A DNA stretch of 64,000 nucleotides, from the NCBI GenBank assembly GCA_000827325.1, contig KN832887.1, positions 620,001 to 684,000 on the forward strand. The letters run 5' to 3'. A program made the position numbers and the translations under genes. Of the stretch, positions 10,212 through 62,585 are shown in pieces. The notes under the pieces were generated by a model. It did no database searches and was not told the DNA's origin. It saw nothing but the letters and a program-made list of their open reading frames with translations. Numbering within the stretch: position 1 is the first letter of the stretch; the number at the start of each line of letters is the position of its first letter. Source of the stretch: Oidiodendron maius Zn (Eukaryota > Ascomycota > Leotiomycetes > Myxotrichaceae).

Positions 10212-11996
10212 TTAATTAAGAAATACTAGTGTACAGCTCCCAGTACAATGAAAATTTAACATTTCAGCCATCCAGTGATTATAACGCTTCAAAACAAGAG
10301 GATCCCTAGGCTTCCAATCACGCCCCCTCCTAGCTGCAGCCCTCGATATCACTCCCCACTTCTGCATTCCAACCTTATTAATCCTTTCAGTAATCTTTTG
10401 AGCCCTTTCAGCCCTCTTTTGCTCAATATATTGCTCCCTTCCAGCTATCCGTAGCCTTGTATCCCCTGCTTTAATTACCCCGTAATCAGAGGCAATACGC
10501 CGCTGGCCACCGTCCCTTTTATACCGAGCTTTTCTAGCCTCCTCAGCCCTTCTTTTGTCTAGTTCTTCCAGAGCTAATATTCCATTCAAAGCAATGGTTG
10601 ATTGAGCCTTATTTCTCTTCTCAACTACCCGTGCAACTGTAGGGGAGAGTGGGATTGAGCCATCTATTGCACCAGTTAGTCTAGAATCAATATAAGCCGA
10701 ATATCGCTATATATCAGGAAGCTTTAATTGAGGGGTTTGGCAGTTAGTCCACTCAATATTGAAGCACTCTTCTGGCTCTGGCGTACGGTTAGGCTCCTGG
10801 TGGGGTTGAAACTTCCGTACATTCTTAAGAACAATATATGGTTGAAAAGGCACAAGCCCCGAACTCTCCTATATATGAATAATTGAGTACTTCTTCATTG
10901 AACGTATACATATTTCATTATATACATCCAAGAAGTCAGTCCTTGAGTATTCACACCCACCAAAGCGTACTTGTTCAGCTAGGATATTCTGGTGTTGAGC
11001 CTTCATTAGGCGAAATATCCCAATATCGAGTGGCTGGAGGATATATATTAAGTGTACAGGGAGTAAGAAAGGGACTACTTTATGATCCCAGCAGTAATCG
11101 ATAAACTCCTTTATCAGGTAAGATCCATGGCCATCTATAACAAGGATCCGATACTCTCCAGAGTGTATAATACCCCTTCTCATCTTGATACCAGGTCTAG
11201 TTGCCTCCTCCCAGTGCTCTAGCCAATCCAAAGCTATCATATCACTCGAGAACCCAGATCCAGTCTCCTCATTTGTAGTAAAGGTAACATCATTCGGTAT
11301 ATCGTTATCAAAGTACTTCACTAGCAAGACCTGGCCAGGGAGTATCATGAAGCTAGGAGCTCGGCCTCCTTCTGCATTGATTGCTTCAATCGTAGTTAAG
11401 GACTCTCATATATCTGGATCCGACATATATACTGTTGATATACTCGGAAAGGTAAAGACTAAACGTCCTCCAAGCATTCCAATCCTCCAGCCAGTCTCAT
11501 CGCAGTTCCATATATTTTGAGGGGTAACGTTATACTCAGAGACTACTTGTCGGAATCGTCGAAAGTGAGACTCAATTTCAGCCCATTCGACTGCAGCTTT
11601 ACGTTCAGCTAATAAGGGCTTCGATCGTCGAGCTTTAAGGAACTGCTTATTCCTATTCAGCCACCTAGTTAGCCAGGGCTTCGATACTGGGGGTTCCCCT
11701 ACAGCACGCAATATACTATTTGCAGCAGCCCGAATATGCTGGCGCTCTGGATTCAAGCCTGCCTTAATACACCTCTCGCAATATAGCTTCAAAGCAGCGT
11801 CTTGCGCGTCGTTTAGACGCGTATTTCGACCACCCCGAGATGAATTAGGAGGCGTACCCTTTGCGCGGGCAATAAGGACCCTATATCGAACAGTATATCG
11901 ACGCGCTGCAGCCCTCCAGGACGTGAATTGACCCCTCTGCATAGCCTGTATAGCCTACTGGATACGACCCTCTTCTTCAGCCGAAGGTGTTCCCAT
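10212..11996 (-). pseudogene. pogo/Fot1-type transposase, interrupted frame (about 594 codons)
   Basis: Read on the minus strand from the ATG at 11996 in one frame. In order: a CENP-B-like helix-turn-helix region (RLNDAQDAALKLY, RQHIRAAANSIL, SKPWLTRWLNRN), the first catalytic Asp in NCDETGWRIG, the second in LVIDGHGSYL, and the third in LQPLDIGIF. That gives a DDD catalytic triad as in pogo/Fot1 transposases. A basic Arg/Lys-rich tail follows. Four in-frame stops fall within this one frame (three TAG and one TGA: near residue 16, after SDPDI, after SIIHI and after LPDI). No frameshift is needed. Each stop could arise by one C-to-T or G-to-A change from Gln, Arg or Trp, which fits RIP but does not prove it. 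The product would be a cut-and-paste transposase acting on the flanking TIRs. Confidence 0.9.
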
Positions 11997-30336: not shown

Positions 30337-32312
30337 TTAAATAATCTGGAGATAATGCTTGTCCCAGACTTGTACTTGATGCTCTATTTCATGTTGGCTC
30401 GTGGCAGCAATTCCAATCCGCTTGTATACAGGGATCTTTTTAGAGCTATCCTTATTCGTCTCCTCCTCCTCCTCCACCGCTACCGACTGTAGAAGTAGAA
30501 AGTAAGTTTGCGGTGAATGGGACGTCTGAATCCATGTCGTAACCTTCAAACCTATACATTCTCCTTTCTCTAAGTCATCAAAGTCCATCACGCACTGCAT
30601 TTGAATACCTCCGAGATAAGCCGTGCCTTGTCCGCAGCGCAGGGATGAGTAAATAGAAAATGTCCCCGACCGAACCGCACCGTGCACCTGAATACTCTTT
30701 TCAGTCACAGTAAGGAACTCAGCATCAGATGGATGTTCAATCCGCCTCAGTGGATCCATGTGCCACCATCCATATGTCACTGGAATGTCGCAGGCCACCC
30801 AGCTCCACGTTGGTCCTGTAAGCCGTAGCTGGTGGTTAGTAGACCTCAGGCTGCCGTCCGCCGTTCTCTCAAGCTCGTCCCGCGACCACAGCAGTCCCCG
30901 ATATAGATCCTCGGCCCACAGACCCACCAGAAAGCGGCAGTGGTACTGGCGTTCCCAGAGGCTTGCCATGCCAAGAAAAGCCTGCAGCCGATCTGACGGT
31001 ACTGACAGTTTCCTCTCGGTGTAGATACGCACAAGGTGGCACCAGATGGCGAAGTGCCCGTCTGGTAGGTCACGGTAGTAATTTCTAGGATCAACATGGA
31101 GAGCCTTCATAAAAGGCTGTGCAACTCTCGTGAGATATGGATCCACCTCCGTCCCAATCATGGTGTTGCACTCCCAGTAGAGCTGATTATCACCATAGTG
31201 TAGGAGTGCGTGCGACAATACCCGCTCCTGGAGCGACCAACCTCGTTTGCTCAAGTTTGCCGTTCTCAAGTTGTCGCGGTACAGAGCAACGGGTTCTCGC
31301 ACGACGATGGTTTGGCTAGACATCCATTTGATATGGTCTTGGAAACGACGGGCAGCAAAAATACCTGCATGGCTGTCCGCCGCAGCGAGAGCGGAAATTG
31401 TTAGAACGCTGCCCTGATAAATGGACGCCATCCGCAAGGATTCAATATCCCAGTCGGCCTTGGAATCCTGAATGATACAGTAGCAGTCGATCCACAAATA
31501 CTGATATCCCAACCGACGCGTGATGCGGATAGCGTCTTGGAAAGTCGCTGGTAGCCGGTTGAATGGCAGACTCTTGGCGTACTCTTCAATGTTCGCAGTC
31601 GTAGTCTCGTGCCGGTTCGCCACGTCTCCCCAGCAGTGACTTAGAGTCAAATAGGCGCCTCGCTGGCCGTTTGGGGTGAATAGAAATGGCTCCTGCGATC
31701 CGTCACGTGGGCCAACATCAAGGACTCGCGTGGGCAGGATGCTGTTATCATGGCAACTCTTAGTATTCGTAACTTAGTCTTGTAGATCTAGACGTATCTA
31801 AAGAACAAAGCGAAAGAATATATATCATTTGTTGACATTTAACAAATGCATCTATACAAGAGGTGTTGACAGAAAAGAAAAAGAAAAAACTACTTATTGC
31901 TGCCATAATCTGCTCTTGTGCTGGCACAAAGCGGATGATTCGTCAGGCACTCCTCGATCCACCATCCGGCGATCTTATAGCAGCTAGGTGCATCTGTCCG
32001 TGGAGCTGCCTCATTCCGTGGCGGCTGGGTACGAAAAATCAGTGGTTGTAATTGGGAAGGTGACGACACCGTGCTCGTTAATGAGGATGATTGTTGATCC
32101 GGTGACAAGAACGGCTGTGACCGTCGAAGTCCCTGCTTGCTTTCTCCAGAGCTTGATACAGATCGATGCAGCGGCTTCTTCTGTGTTTCAGGCACCTGCG
32201 CTTGTCCTACATTTAAATCTACTTTGTCGTTCCTGTTGCTCTCATTGCTCGTCGCGGGGGTTTCGATCTCCGCAGGCTCCACTAGTACTGGTAGAGCGGT
32301 ATGAAGAGACAT
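30337..32312 (-). CDS. HET-domain (heterokaryon incompatibility) protein, about 612 aa
   Basis: Two exons: about 32312-31894 and 31756-30337. The intron of about 137 bp has a GTAGTT donor; the acceptor choice is uncertain. Exon 1 begins at the first in-frame ATG (32312) and encodes a Ser/Pro-rich leader ending at WWIEECLTNHPLC, the Cys-containing lead-in usual for this HET subfamily. Exon 2 has NSILPTRVLDVG and then the HET domain: YLTLSHCWGD, LGYQYLWIDCYCIIQD, MASIYQGSVLTISA and LSKRGWSLQERVLSHALLHY. A roughly 250-residue variable C-terminus follows. HET domains act in non-self recognition and cell death; some show a distant TIR-like fold. It is divergent from the HET-S-like gene with 464 bp between the starts, so shared regulation is possible. 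No amyloid (HRAM) motif was seen in it. Confidence 0.88.
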
Positions 32313-32776
32313 TAAAATGATTACAACCTTGTGCAATTCCAAGGTTAGTTGTCTTGAACCGAGGTGAAGGGAGATACGATTTAAGGCATAGCGTCCGGTT
32401 GTGTACAGTTATCAAAATAGGGTTAATTGCTAGGATGAGTTTTCCTCGCCGAAAGATATCCTACGCGATTATGTAATGCCCCGTAAAAGGTGTTGCATAA
32501 GAGGTGTATCCACGCCTCCAATGAAAGCGCCAAACGATAGTCCAGTCACCACACCGTCTAACGGAGGACGAGCGCGACGGGATCCACGTCGAGCTCCACT
32601 GAATTCCTACCCACCAAGGAATTGAAGGCAACAAAGTAGTAGTGGGCAAACTTGCCAAGAGGCTACCAGATAGACCCAGACGCGAGGAGGTAAGGCACAG
32701 CTCCTGGACCGTGCACGGTCCTACAAATGAGGACCTCGTGTCTACTTTATCTCTCGCGCAATTTACTACCTCCACA
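32313..32776. promoter_or_regulatory. divergent intergenic region between the HET and HET-S-like genes
   Basis: 464 bp between two divergent start codons. The HET-S-like frame stays open upstream to 32642 through an in-frame ATG, but the family start (MAEPFG) is at 32777. No strong TATA box. Confidence 0.4.
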
Positions 32777-33619
32777 ATGGCAGAGCCTTTTGGCGTCGTC
32801 GCTGGTGCTATTGGTATTGCATCTGCTTTCACCGCATGTGTTGGCTGCTTCGAATACGTCCAATTTGGCAGGCGATTCGGACGAGACTTCCAGACAGATC
32901 AACTGGCTCTTAGTTGCGCAAGGCTGCGCCTTACACGTTGGGGAGAGTCTGTTGACATTTACAACGATCCGAGATTAGGCAAATCCAACGCTACTGTGAC
33001 TGAGATCCAAGTTGCAAAGGATACGTTACTCCAAATCCTAGTGCTCTTCGCTGACACTGAAGCCATCTCAAAAAAGTACAAGTTGGCTGCGAAGGCTGGC
33101 GATGACCTCTCCGTGTTTTCGACGGGCGACATGGACCCAACATTGATCGCGCTGGACAATAAGATGAAAGGTCTGGCTATGAAGCGTCAAAAGAGGAGCC
33201 GGTTCTTGAAGCTTACCAGCTGGGCTCTCTACCATAAGTCCGAGCTCACAGGCCTTCTTGAAGGGATCGTCTCGCTCATCGACAGTATCGAGAAATTGTT
33301 TCCCGCTGCTGAAGCACAAACCAAGCTCGTCCGACAAGAAGCGACAGAAGTCGGCGATAAACAATCTCTTCAGCTTCTTGAGAATGTAGCCAAGAACGTA
33401 GATAACCTTCTTCAAATCACTGCAGGGGAATTACGTTCAGGTCATCAATACTTGAATGTTGTCGTCAGAGGCGAGGCTCAAACTGGCGATGCGTATAGTA
33501 ATGATTGGGTAGGGGCCGGGGTAGGGACGTCTCATGAGTATAAATGTATAGAGGTGGAAAAAGGTGGGAAGGCTTTGATTGGGAATAAATACGGCGGGAA
33601 GGACTTTTGGGACGATTGA
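32777..33619 (+). CDS. HET-S/HET-s homologue: HeLo domain plus C-terminal amyloid (HRAM) repeats (280 aa)
   Basis: Start at the ATG at 32777 gives MAEPFGVVAGAIGIASAF, aligning with Podospora anserina HET-s (289 aa; MSEPFGIVAG...). Residues 1 to about 220 match the HeLo domain (CFEYVQFGRRFGRDFQ, LRLTRWGESV, RQKRSRFLKLTSWALY). The last 58 residues form a prion-forming-domain-like region with two pseudo-repeats. The first is HQYLNVVVRGEAQTGDAY (223-240); the second is HEYKCIEVEKGGKALIGNKY (253-272), then GGKDFWDD, against the HET-s tail VLIGNEYGGKGFWDN. In HET-S the HeLo domain becomes a membrane-disrupting toxin when the amyloid region is templated. The residues deciding type in Podospora, 23 and 33, are Gly and Arg here. 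Proline 33, typical of the prion allele, is absent, so HET-S-like toxicity is the better guess. Single exon, intact. Confidence 0.95.
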   Translation: MAEPFGVVAGAIGIASAFTACVGCFEYVQFGRRFGRDFQTDQLALSCARLRLTRWGESVDIYNDPRLGKSNATVTEIQVAKDTLLQILVLFADTEAISKKYKLAAKAGDDLSVFSTGDMDPTLIALDNKMKGLAMKRQKRSRFLKLTSWALYHKSELTGLLEGIVSLIDSIEKLFPAAEAQTKLVRQEATEVGDKQSLQLLENVAKNVDNLLQITAGELRSGHQYLNVVVRGEAQTGDAYSNDWVGAGVGTSHEYKCIEVEKGGKALIGNKYGGKDFWDD

Positions 33620-56091: not shown

Positions 56092-59000
56092 ATGGAGTCA
56101 CGGGAGACTCCAGTGCAGCCAGTCGGGCTAACGCTCTTGAGTGACCCTCCAAAAGCGGCGATTGAGTACGTAGGTCATTCTCGCTCAAAATCGGTGCCAG
56201 AAACTGACTTGAGATAGTATAGTGTTTGTTCACGGCCTACAAGGACATCCGCAATCGACCTGGACTTTAGAATCCAAGGCTAATCGAAGACTTCCTTCCA
56301 CGGAGCGCCGAGATCATTTTCCATTTCGCCTGTGGCTAAAAGACAAGAGCGCCGAATCGAAACTCTCTAACAAGGAAGAGGTGGTAGACGAGGCAAGTGG
56401 CAATGAAAGTAAAAGACAAATAGGAGCAGTCTTCTGGCCAAGAGACCTACTTAAGGACGATTTTCCAAATGCTAGGATAATGACCTTTGGCTACGACACA
56501 ACAATTATGCAAGGTTACCGTCCTGTGCATCAGGGCAATATCTTCTCTCATGCGAAAAATCTTCTCTATGGGTTAGAGTTAAAGAGGAGAAATGAAACGA
56601 AACGGGATCTTGTTTTTATCGCCCATTCGCTCGGCGGGATATTAGTTAAGGAAGTTTTACGACGCTCTGAATGCGATCCAGACCATAAAATTAACAAGAT
56701 ATTCATGTCAACGACTGGCATCTTCTTCTTCGGGACTCCCCATAGAGGAAGCGAGGAATGGGCTTCGTTTGGAGAAGGCATCGCGACCATTTCAAGTCGT
56801 CTCTTGGGTATGGATATGAATGCGACGGTCATTGGTGCGCTATTGCCTGGTAGCGCGGAACTTAAACTTTGCCAAGAAACATTTACAACTCAATGGGCAA
56901 AGCGTAGAGAAAGCCTCACCGTAAGAACTTTTCAAGAGTCGAAAGCTGTGATAGGCATTCGGTTTGGGGGAATAAATAAGCTGGTACGTCAATGTTCCGT
57001 GTGGTATCGCGCAATAGAGTGACGAGTACAATAGATTGTGCCACCGGACTCATCTACTCTCGAACACCCAAATGAGCGCGCTCGCACGATAGATGCAGAT
57101 CATATAAATATGGTAAAATTTAGCGGGAGGTATGATAGAACTTATGAGATGGTGAAAGGTGATATTGAAGAACTAGTCAGAAGGGCGGAAGAAATGGCTG
57201 GCAGGGCTGTGCCAGGTCTGTCTTAAACTCTCTTAAGGTTATAATACTATTAAGATTCTAACCAAAAAGAAGATCCAGCGCAGTCTGCATACAAAGATTA
57301 TGAAATGCAACAACGAATGAGCCGTACCACTGTTGACGCTAAGACGGTGCATCCTCCTTGTGAGTACACAACTTTGCTGATTTCTTATCTCCAAGCTACA
57401 TGCCTCTTTTTAAGCATGGGGTTCTCAGAGTGGATAGAGTCATTTGATATGTCCTTAATCCTGTATGGTGTCGTGATGAATTCGGGATATTTCTACCCTA
57501 TGAGACGATGTTTTTGAGCAGTGACTAATTTTGGATTAGTTAGTTCAATACCACTTACGGTACTACCTTTTGGTCGGAATAGAGAATTTGTTGGCCGAAA
57601 ATCTCAACTGGATCGACTCATTACAACTCTACATACCAATAAGACGGAAGACTGTCCATGTATTGCTCTAGTTGGTCTAGGTGGAGTTGGGAAGACCCAA
57701 ATTGCCCTAGAATGTGCATTCCGGCTCAAGACGATCTCTCCGACATGTTCCGTGTTTTGGGTCAGGGCAAGTGATCAAATGAGTTTTGATGACGCCTATC
57801 GCGATATTGGACAACAACTCCATATTCTTGAGCTTGAAAATGACAAAGCAGACATCAAGAGACTTGTCAAGAGGAGGCTGTCTCAGGAAAGCACAGGGAT
57901 GTGGCTTATGATTATAGACAGTGCAGATGATTTCGAAATGTTCTATAATAGTAACGATACTAACGTATCTGGCATATTATCAGAGTATCTTCCTTTTAGT
58001 ACTCTTGGTGCTATTCTATTTACGACTAGGGATCGTGAGGCTGCTACGAGATATACTAGCTCAAATGTGATTGAAGTAGATGAGATGAACAACACAGACG
58101 CAAGGGAGCTTCTTCGACACAGCCTCCAAAGCAAACAGCCAAATCAAGATGAAGAAGGAGTAACTAAACTTCTAAAATTACTTGTCAACCTTCCACTTGC
58201 AATTATGCAAGCAGTCGCATACCTCAACACAAGGGAGTGCACCATCACTGAATATCTCAGAATCTATGAAGAGAGCAGTGATAATGTTATTAAGTTACTA
58301 AGCCAAGACTTCAATGATGCGAGGCGATATCCAGGCATAAAGAATCCGGTTGCTACTACATGGTTCATCTCATTTGAGCAAATCCTAGTCCGAGATCCCC
58401 TGGCAGCAGATTATATTGCCTTTATTTCTTGTGTCAAAGAGCAAGATATTCCCCGAGATCTCCTGCCACCAGCGTCCGAGTTTGAGCAAAAAGAGGCACT
58501 TTACACTCTGAAAGCCTTTAGATTCATTAATGAGCATGGTGCGGAGTTATATAACATGCATCGACTAGTTCATCTAGCGGCCCAACAGTGGCTAAAACTC
58601 AAAGACAAATGGAACAGTTGGAATGAAAGTGCCCTTGAGCAGGTTGCGAGGGTGTTCCCCTTTCCTCAGCATGAGAATAGGGCTTTGTGGATGTTGTATC
58701 TCCCTCATGCACATTGTCTTATTGCGACCCTCAACATGGAGCTCAAGAGAACAAATGAGACAAACCAGTTGATAGCGGATTTACTGCACAAACTAGGAGA
58801 GTGTTCAAAAATAAAAGGTAATTACGCAACGGCTGAGGTCATGTACCGGCAAGCGTTACAGCTGAGGGAGACTGTGCTAGGGAAGGAACACCCGGACACC
58901 CTTACTAGTATGAGCAACCTTGCTGTATCACTTCACTGGCAAGGAAAATACGCTGTAGCCGAAGATATCCACCGGCAGACGTTGCATCTGAGGGAGGCCG

Positions 59001-59659
59001 TGCTTGAGAAGGACCACCCAGACACGCTCACGAGTATGAGTAACCTCGCCTTATCGCTTCACTGGCAGGGCAAGTATGCAGCAGCAGATACCATGCACCG
59101 GCAGACTCTAGAGCTTAGAAAGAAGGTGCTGAGAAGAGACCATCCTGATACTCTTAAGAGCATGAACAATCTCGCTTTATCACTTCACTGGCAGCGCAAG
59201 TATGCAGAAGCTGAAGCTATGCACCGGGACACTCTAGAGATTAGGATAAAAGAGCTTGGGAAGGACCACCTAGAAACGATTACAAGTATGAGTAACCTTG
59301 CCGTATCGCTTCAGTGGCAGAAAAAGTATGTAGAGGCCGAGACTATGCATCGACGGATTCTAGATATCAGGGAGAGGGTGCTCGGAAAGGACCACCCGCA
59401 AACGCTTACGAGTATGAACAACCTTGCTTTATCACGAAGCTGGCAGGGCAAGTACGCAGAAGCTGAGGCTATGCACCAGCAGACGTTGCAACTTAGGGAG
59501 ACTGTGCTAGGAAAGGAACACCCGGACACGCTCACAAGTATGAGAAACCTTGCCTTATCACTTAGACGCCAAGGTAAAAACGCGAAAGCAGAGGCTCTCC
59601 AACTTCATGTTCTAGAGCGTAGGGATGAGGTGCTAGGGGGGGCCACCCACATACGATAA
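56092..59659 (+). CDS. NLR-type protein: SesB-like serine hydrolase, NB-ARC, TPR (about 1046 aa)
   Basis: Exons 56092-56165, 56218-56983, 57035-57215 and, less surely, 57540-59659. Introns 1 and 2 (52 and 51 bp) have GTACGT donors. The third, 57216-57539, would be 324 bp, unusually long here. The first junction gives AAIDIVFVHGLQGHP. Residues 25-275 are a SesB/lipase-like alpha/beta hydrolase with nucleophile motif AHSLGG and FFGTPHRGS. The NB-ARC has Walker A GLGGVGKT (about 386-393), Walker B WLMIIDSAD and LFTTRD. Seven 42-residue TPRs follow from about residue 767. Fungal NLRs of this kind are thought to sense non-self and trigger a response through the N-terminal effector domain. The last repeat ends early: a G7 run at 59636-59642 shifts the frame, since one more G would continue HPHTITSIRN. 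Possibly still functional. Confidence 0.9.
58817..59659 (+). repeat. seven 126-bp tandem TPR-coding units
   Basis: Units start near 58817, 58943, 59069, 59195, 59321, 59447 and 59573, each 126 bp (42 aa: KYAEAEAMHRQTLELR..VLG, then HPDTLTSMSNLALSLHWQG). Units 1 and 6 are identical over LQLRETVLGKEHPDTLTSM, nearly so in DNA as well, which suggests recent exchange between units. The seventh is truncated. Confidence 0.93.
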
Positions 59660-61388: not shown

Positions 61389-62312
61389 CTAGCCTTTATA
61401 GTAATAGCTGTCGGTGAGGGGTCTCATATTAATCGGCAATACTTTGGGGACCGCATTGGGTCCGTAAGCGGAAGCAAATGCATGCATCGATTTGCCGCGC
61501 TCCACGCTGACAACCATAGGTCTGAATGAGGTGGATGCTACTGAGGGTGGAGTTACTGTCGAAGCTAAGGAAACTGGGCTGCCACTTGACTGGAGAACCG
61601 GGGGCGCTGAAAGGGTCCTCTTGGCTTTCAGACTTTGCTCGTATCGTTCAACATCTCGTCTAATTCTTGCAGATATACTCTCGGGGGTCGTTGGAGTTTC
61701 GATACTGTCTTGCCATGCTCCAGACGTATAGATGGGCGATTGCGAGGGTGCAGAATTCGAAGGTTTGAAAACTAGTGGCGAGGCTCTAGGCGTATCGACG
61801 CTTGGTTGCGAAGGTGAAGAAAGAGGGATATCTGTCTTCGGTTTCTGCTTCTGCAGTGCAGAATTCGAAGTATTGGAAACTAGTGGCAAGGCTCTAGGCG
61901 TATCGACGCTTGGTTGCGAAGGTGTAGAGAGAGGGATATCTGTCTTCGGTTTCTGCTTCTGCAGTGCAGAATTCGAAGTAATGAAAATTCGTGGCGAGGC
62001 TCTAGGCTTATCGACGGTCGTCTCCGGTTTCTGCTTCTGCAGTGCAGAATTCGAAGTAATGAAAATTCGTGGCGAGGCTCTAGGCGTATCGATGGTCGTC
62101 TCCAGTTTCCGCCTCTGCAGTGCAGAATTCGAAGTAATGAAAATTCGTGGCGAGGCTCTAGGCGTATCGATGGTCGGTTGGGAAGGTGGAGAAAGAGGGG
62201 TACCTGTCTCCGGTTTCCGCTTCTGCAGTGGCCATTTGACCTTACGGCCTACCTTCTCTAATCTTCCTCGGATCCACTCTCTTTTCTTTGCCATAGAAGC
62301 AGACGGTTTCAA
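61389..62312 (-). CDS. disordered tandem-repeat protein (307 aa)
   Basis: Single minus-strand frame from the ATG at 62312; a second Met lies six residues in. The N-terminus is basic (MAKKREWIRGRLEKVGRKVK). Residues 40-200 are tandem repeats of 26-36 residues built on DTPRASPRIFITSNSALQKQ and a variant with an added TDIPLSSPSQPSV insert. A charged helix (SISARIRRDVERYEQSLKAK) follows, then a Ser/Pro-rich tail ending YYYKG. No domain recognised and largely disordered; the basic N-terminal helix and Ser-Pro sites could suit a regulated cytoplasmic or nuclear adaptor, which is speculation. The opposite strand is also open over 61732-62418, so the coding strand is a judgement based on composition. 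Divergent from the 62586 gene with 273 bp between starts. Confidence 0.6.
   Translation of the reverse strand: MKPSASMAKKREWIRGRLEKVGRKVKWPLQKRKPETGTPLSPPSQPTIDTPRASPRIFITSNSALQRRKLETTIDTPRASPRIFITSNSALQKQKPETTVDKPRASPRIFITSNSALQKQKPKTDIPLSTPSQPSVDTPRALPLVSNTSNSALQKQKPKTDIPLSSPSQPSVDTPRASPLVFKPSNSAPSQSPIYTSGAWQDSIETPTTPESISARIRRDVERYEQSLKAKRTLSAPPVLQSSGSPVSLASTVTPPSVASTSFRPMVVSVERGKSMHAFASAYGPNAVPKVLPINMRPLTDSYYYKG
61753..62205 (-). repeat. five tandem coding repeats with 108- and 78-bp periods
   Basis: The marker GAATTCGAAG occurs at about 61753, 61861, 61969, 62047 and 62125, so spacings are 108, 108, 78 and 78 bp. The short form lacks a 30-bp piece (coding about ten residues). All periods are multiples of three, keeping both strands open. 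Confidence 0.9.
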
Positions 62313-62585
62313 ACATTTGAAGGAGAGCTTGCCGTATGGGGTTGGTGATCTTCGTATAAAAGCGGGCGGGTTCGACTGGAGTTATATGTTGACAAATCTC
62401 TCACTTCTGCCGATGTAACGTAAACGCTGTTAAATACAGGGGCCGGCAGATCACATGCTCTCAGCTGCTGCGGCAGCTCTGCATTTCCCATCAAGATCTC
62501 GGCGATGATTTGTTGGCGATAAAAGTGGGATACTATTTTTATAACACCCAATTTTCCATATCCTCCAGGGGACGGGCTGAAATCT

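Follow-up and report, generated by a model that had tools for sequence, protein, structure and literature searches.

The closest described counterparts of the gene analyzed here are HET-S and HET-s of Podospora anserina and the HET-s-related amyloid motif (HRAM) subfamilies. The role of a hidden N-terminal membrane helix has been described for HET-S (PMC3531502) and the function of the C-terminal loop for HET-s (PMC4055769). In proteins with two amyloid repeats, R1 and R2, motif position 3 is His in HRAM3, Asn in canonical HET-s, and Gln in HRAM2; gaps in R1 are needed in a small fraction of the sequences, and HRAM3 proteins prefer a positive residue at position 15 of R1 (PMC4518210). Here we analyzed a 64,000-nucleotide window of Oidiodendron maius Zn (assembly GCA_000827325.1, contig KN832887.1, positions 620,001 to 684,000; coordinates are those of the window unless a contig is given) and found an intact gene whose product is very likely a cell-death effector of the HET-S type, within the HRAM3 subfamily, in which a two-rung amyloid tail would trigger membrane killing.

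An intact gene with a HET-S-type HeLo domain

The gene occupies 32777..33619 of the forward strand, stop codon included, as a single exon of 280 codons that has no internal stop and requires no intron. Its product starts from the first in-frame ATG with MAEPFG, as do many relatives, so that the reading frame originally predicted at this place, with this start, is confirmed as intact and intron-free.

The HeLo domain (residues 6–201, 32792..33379, + strand) matches the PF14479 profile at 160.9 bits, against a Pfam cut-off of 23.2. Matches to solved structures point to the HET-S/s HeLo fold, and the domain was superposed on the Podospora HET-S/HET-s structures 2wvo, 2wvn, and 2wvq with 39–41% identity. 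The profile search proposed with the original prediction and the structure matches therefore both support the HeLo identity. Within the domain, residues 7–25 (32795..32851, + strand) form an uncharged apolar segment, which corresponds to the membrane helix that lies hidden in HET-S. Its mean Kyte-Doolittle hydropathy is 2.03, compared with 1.81 in HET-S (2wvo), 1.36 in HET-s (2wvn), and a median of 1.86 over 115 sequences.

Relatives were taken from the best 120 of 318 and the best 120 of 238 matches. The best named ones come from Bisporella and Pseudogymnoascus, both Leotiomycetes, and from other genera, followed by lichen fungi such as Xanthoria (Lecanoromycetes) and by single proteins in Geoglossum, Trichoglossum, and Curvularia.

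A tail with two HRAM3 repeats

Repeat R1 spans residues 221–240 (33437..33496) and R2 residues 251–272 (33527..33592), both on the + strand and of the HRAM3 type. They are followed by the aromatic loop GGKDFWDD (residues 273–280, 33593..33616, + strand), which is by alignment the counterpart of the F286/W287 loop of HET-s. Pairwise comparison with HET-s 218–289 gave weak scores, with E values of 0.015–0.021 for the whole protein and 0.002–0.0028 for the 76-residue tail alone, in a search where a chain of NADH:ubiquinone oxidoreductase reached 0.01. Despite these scores, the identity of the tail is settled because both repeats are kept in 118 of the 120 listed sequences. These 118 sequences with a readable repeat pair, the window protein included, are the basis of the repeat counts below; GGKDFWDD is their commonest C-terminal ending (51/118).

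The PF11558 (HET-s_218-289) profile, from which a match had been expected, gave none to the window protein at E values up to 10. This does not refute the assignment and is unsurprising, because the profile covers a small part of the double-motif proteins: it matches just 38 of 155 in PMC4518210, and 3 of 95 members of the present family, weakly (best E value 0.048).

With motif positions numbered as in PMC4518210, the paired residues of R1 and R2 are H223/H253 (position 3), Y225/Y255 (5), V228/I258 (8), V230/V260 (10), E233/K265 (15), A234/A266 (16), T236/I268 (18), G237/G269 (19), and D238/N270 (20). Both repeats thus carry the His at position 3 that marks HRAM3, along with Gly19 and a hydrophobic core, except that position 18 of R1 is Thr, as in 91 of the other sequences. 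The same features run through the family: position 3 is His in 117/118 R1 and 116/118 R2 repeats, positions 5, 8, and 10 are hydrophobic in all 118 for both repeats, and position 19 is Gly in 116/118 R1 and 117/118 R2 repeats. Position 15 of R1 is individual to the window protein, which has the only Glu (Glu233), with Lys in 60 and Gln in 50 of the 118. Judged by these motif features, the tail fits the published HRAM3 subfamily.

The second arch of R1 is two residues shorter than that of R2. This short R1 was found in 116/118 sequences, 112 of them with a longer R2 (an arch of two residues against four) and 4 with an equally short R2; in the other 2, both repeats are long. R1 is therefore not degenerate, contrary to the suggestion that it had diverged much more than R2, and the idea of a solenoid unusual to this protein is not supported either, since the short form is general and the motif fits published HRAM3. 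The claim that R1 lacks the Asn-Val ladder spacing of HET-s needs correction: both repeats have His at the first ladder position, and position 20 holds an Asp/Asn pair. From the sequence comparison, the tail form is one already described and kept across a large family. Between the repeats (33497–33526), a Trp lies within five residues after R1 in 117/118 sequences; R2 is likewise followed by such a residue in the FW loop, and the Trp after R1 might conceivably belong to a second aromatic pocket.

Register of the two repeats

AlphaFold, run on an alignment of 95 of the 120 sequences with the window protein standing for its own entry, predicted strands at residues 224–226, 229–230, 233–236, and 239–240 in R1 and 254–256, 259–260, 265–268, and 271–272 in R2, which occupy equal motif positions in the two repeats.

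Covariation was examined in a set of 152 sequences, 11 of which could not be fitted. For the remaining 141 (effective number 24), corrected couplings were ranked over all 324 R1–R2 column pairs. The three highest include two in-register pairs (18–18 and 20–20), and in-register couplings exceeded the rest (p = 0.02), which weakly supports two-rung stacking. Charge products between the repeats gave no register signal. For position 20, six of the unfitted sequences were re-added by eye and five excluded for a truncated or different C-terminus. The R1/R2 pairs in the resulting 147 sequences were Asp/Asn in 138, Asn/Asp in 5, Asn/Asn in 4, and Asp/Asp in none, so that an Asp in R2 was always accompanied by an Asn in R1. 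When position 20 is mapped onto a tree built from the HeLo region, at least 6 changes are needed in R1 and 4 in R2; two to three independent pairs go in the same direction and none is opposed, too few for significance (p = 0.25).

It is possible, though we consider it rather doubtful, that a modified HET-s solenoid runs through the whole clade, with two rungs of unequal length, a heterotypic Asp/Asn ladder at position 20 that swaps sides, and effectors that largely carry Asp23 and His33. If so, the Podospora rule linking residue 23 to toxicity would not carry over to it.

The original prediction of a full-length HET-S homologue with two pseudo-repeats is borne out by the HeLo profile, the structure matches, the conservation in the family, the predicted strands, and the weak in-register covariation. 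By analogy with Podospora, the HeLo domain would be folded at rest and the 60-residue tail disordered. The tail could then meet a matching amyloid template, either the N-terminal r0 motif of an activated NOD-like receptor (NLR) partner or an amyloid already built from that motif, upon which R1 and R2 would stack in register as two β-solenoid rungs. Formation of the solenoid would strain the HeLo domain and release the apolar N-terminal helix into the membrane, where the inserted HeLo domain might oligomerize and become toxic, causing cell death. The intact gene probably encodes, by the same analogy, a HET-S-like protein that is a putative cell-killing membrane protein activated by its amyloid tail, and for the window itself such a gene would be an ordinary immune or allorecognition gene.

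Toxicity type and alternative explanations

The window protein has Gly23 and Arg33, as the original prediction had read. Residues 23 and 33 were compared in 117 of the 120 listed sequences, the window protein counted (3 without a readable stretch were dropped). Asp23 occurs in 113 and is combined with His33 in 90, Gly23 is found in the window protein only, and Pro33 in none. In Podospora, H33P alone makes HET-S HET-s-like, while the reverse change needs both D23A and P33H (PMC3531502). The absence of Pro33, the Gly23, and a helix no less apolar than the HET-S one together favor a HET-S-type protein, and a HET-S-type pore former is plausible by analogy, as Pro33 is missing and the N-terminal helix uncharged.

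The protein could instead be a non-toxic, HET-s-like prion former, with a self-propagating amyloid tail and a HeLo domain inert on membranes. Arg33 differs from the His of HET-S, at the very position where the single H33P change suffices, and lends this some weight; we nevertheless consider it unlikely, as neither this protein nor any other sequence compared has Pro33 and Gly23 takes away the helix charge present in HET-s. The genome at large (45.9 Mb, 58 contigs) bears on whether the gene functions at all. The protein query found 16 matches and the HeLo profile 25, among which three close relatives (C1:4270153-4270853, C17:302615-302997, and C3:839052-839846) are broken by frame breaks, stops, or missing parts, with no clear signature of repeat-induced point mutation in these three. 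The window gene could be one more such decaying, functionless copy. The only member of its type found intact in the genome, it nevertheless retains equivalents of the residues G242/G278, Y281, K284, F286, and W287, known to be important in HET-s (PMC4055769), and a full-length relative 88% identical to it exists elsewhere, which makes decay very unlikely.

An effector of this kind might also work without an NLR, in a two-gene death module with a divergent HET-domain gene. Such a gene (PF06985, E value 3.2e-30) does lie upstream on the − strand, head to head with the HeLo gene, at 30340-31773 with a probable further exon within 31893-32408 and an intron probably near 31774-31892. Yet the genome abounds in HET-domain genes (481 first-look candidates, of which 150 matches were scored), so that the adjoining one may be there by chance, and none of the four neighboring frames searched matched any locus that holds one of the three broken copies. 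This pairing appears the most improbable of the explanations, and a HET-S-type effector triggered through its HRAM3 tail remains the preferred one.

Genomic neighborhood and other HeLo genes

PMC3321046 reports an NLR beside every het-S homologue analyzed, whereas PMC4518210 gives an adjacent NLR for 98 of 155 such genes, so that adjacency is not obligatory. Non-adjacent signaling is suspected in PMC9815663, where, however, the partners of an HRAM3-like NLR motif were single motifs in PNP_UDP effectors. Among the listed matches, none is an NLR beside the window gene; the nearest NLR, which combines NB-ARC with TPR repeats, lies in frames 56213-57022 and 57518-59659 (+ strand); the frame preceding it shows a weak lipase-like match (DUF676, E value 0.0013), below the Pfam cut-off. 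The genome has at least 89 NACHT, at least 63 NB-ARC, and at least 153 NPHP3_N matches, in overlapping sets. The short r0 motif was not detected in a profile scan that covered the window and 34 NLR loci, and with them a minority of the NLR N-termini, and searches of the whole genome with the tail returned only the window gene and one broken relative. One sequence pattern matched exactly at the window gene only and, with up to two mismatches, at 43 places against 29 for a control.

Elsewhere in the window, two adjoining frames on the − strand (10872-11954) carry parts of a transposase of the Tc5/pogo type (HTH_Tnp_Tc5, DDE_1), and a frame at 61389-62381 (− strand) contains long, near-identical internal repeats.

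Two of the other HeLo genes of the genome are more distant and end in amyloid-type tails of other kinds. In C5:1467477-1468115, a 287-residue frame, reading by eye shows a duplicated tail that resembles HET-s but differs from the present one (NIFNNIDV...FGDN, GVYTRITV...FGNN). The HeLo protein at C11:1664659-1665354 has by eye a C-terminal NSGFQIGNN that fits the published PP pattern NxGxQxGxN (PMC9815663), and an NPHP3_N match lies ~4.5 kb from it, at C11:1669820. Four HeLo frames are longer (554, 1063, 693, and 630 residues); three of them look by eye kinase-like in the C-terminal part, and the 1063-residue frame also has a NACHT match.

Comparison with known systems

The gene adds a clean, intact HET-S-type effector in a Leotiomycete, with a widely kept tail form. 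Its clade allows direct tests of whether HRAM3 folds as the HET-s solenoid, of the separation of HRAM3 and HRAM1 in seeding, and of Asp23 as a toxicity determinant outside Podospora.

The window protein resembles HET-S/HET-s of P. anserina (2wvo, 2wvn, 2wvq; amyloid 2kj3/2rnm/2mus) in its HeLo domain, two repeats, and aromatic C-terminal loop. It differs from them in several ways: ladder position 3 is His, not Asn, position 20 holds Asp/Asn, R1 is two residues shorter than R2, residues 23 and 33 are Gly and Arg, and no adjacent NLR was found. With the HRAM3 subfamily, of which Table 1 of PMC4518210 counts six in Pseudogymnoascus pannorum, it shares His3 in both repeats, G19, and hydrophobic positions 5, 8, and 10, but at R1 position 15 it carries Glu instead of the favored positive residue. 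The proteins closest to it are those of Leotiomycetes and lichen fungi (Bisporella, Rhexocercosporidium, Hyaloscypha, Lachnellula, Pseudogymnoascus, Xanthoria, and others), several of them named 'small s protein', which have the same architecture, are mostly 279–280 residues long, and show 58–88% identity among the matches listed; from their prevailing Asp23 and His33, the window protein departs with Gly23 and Arg33.
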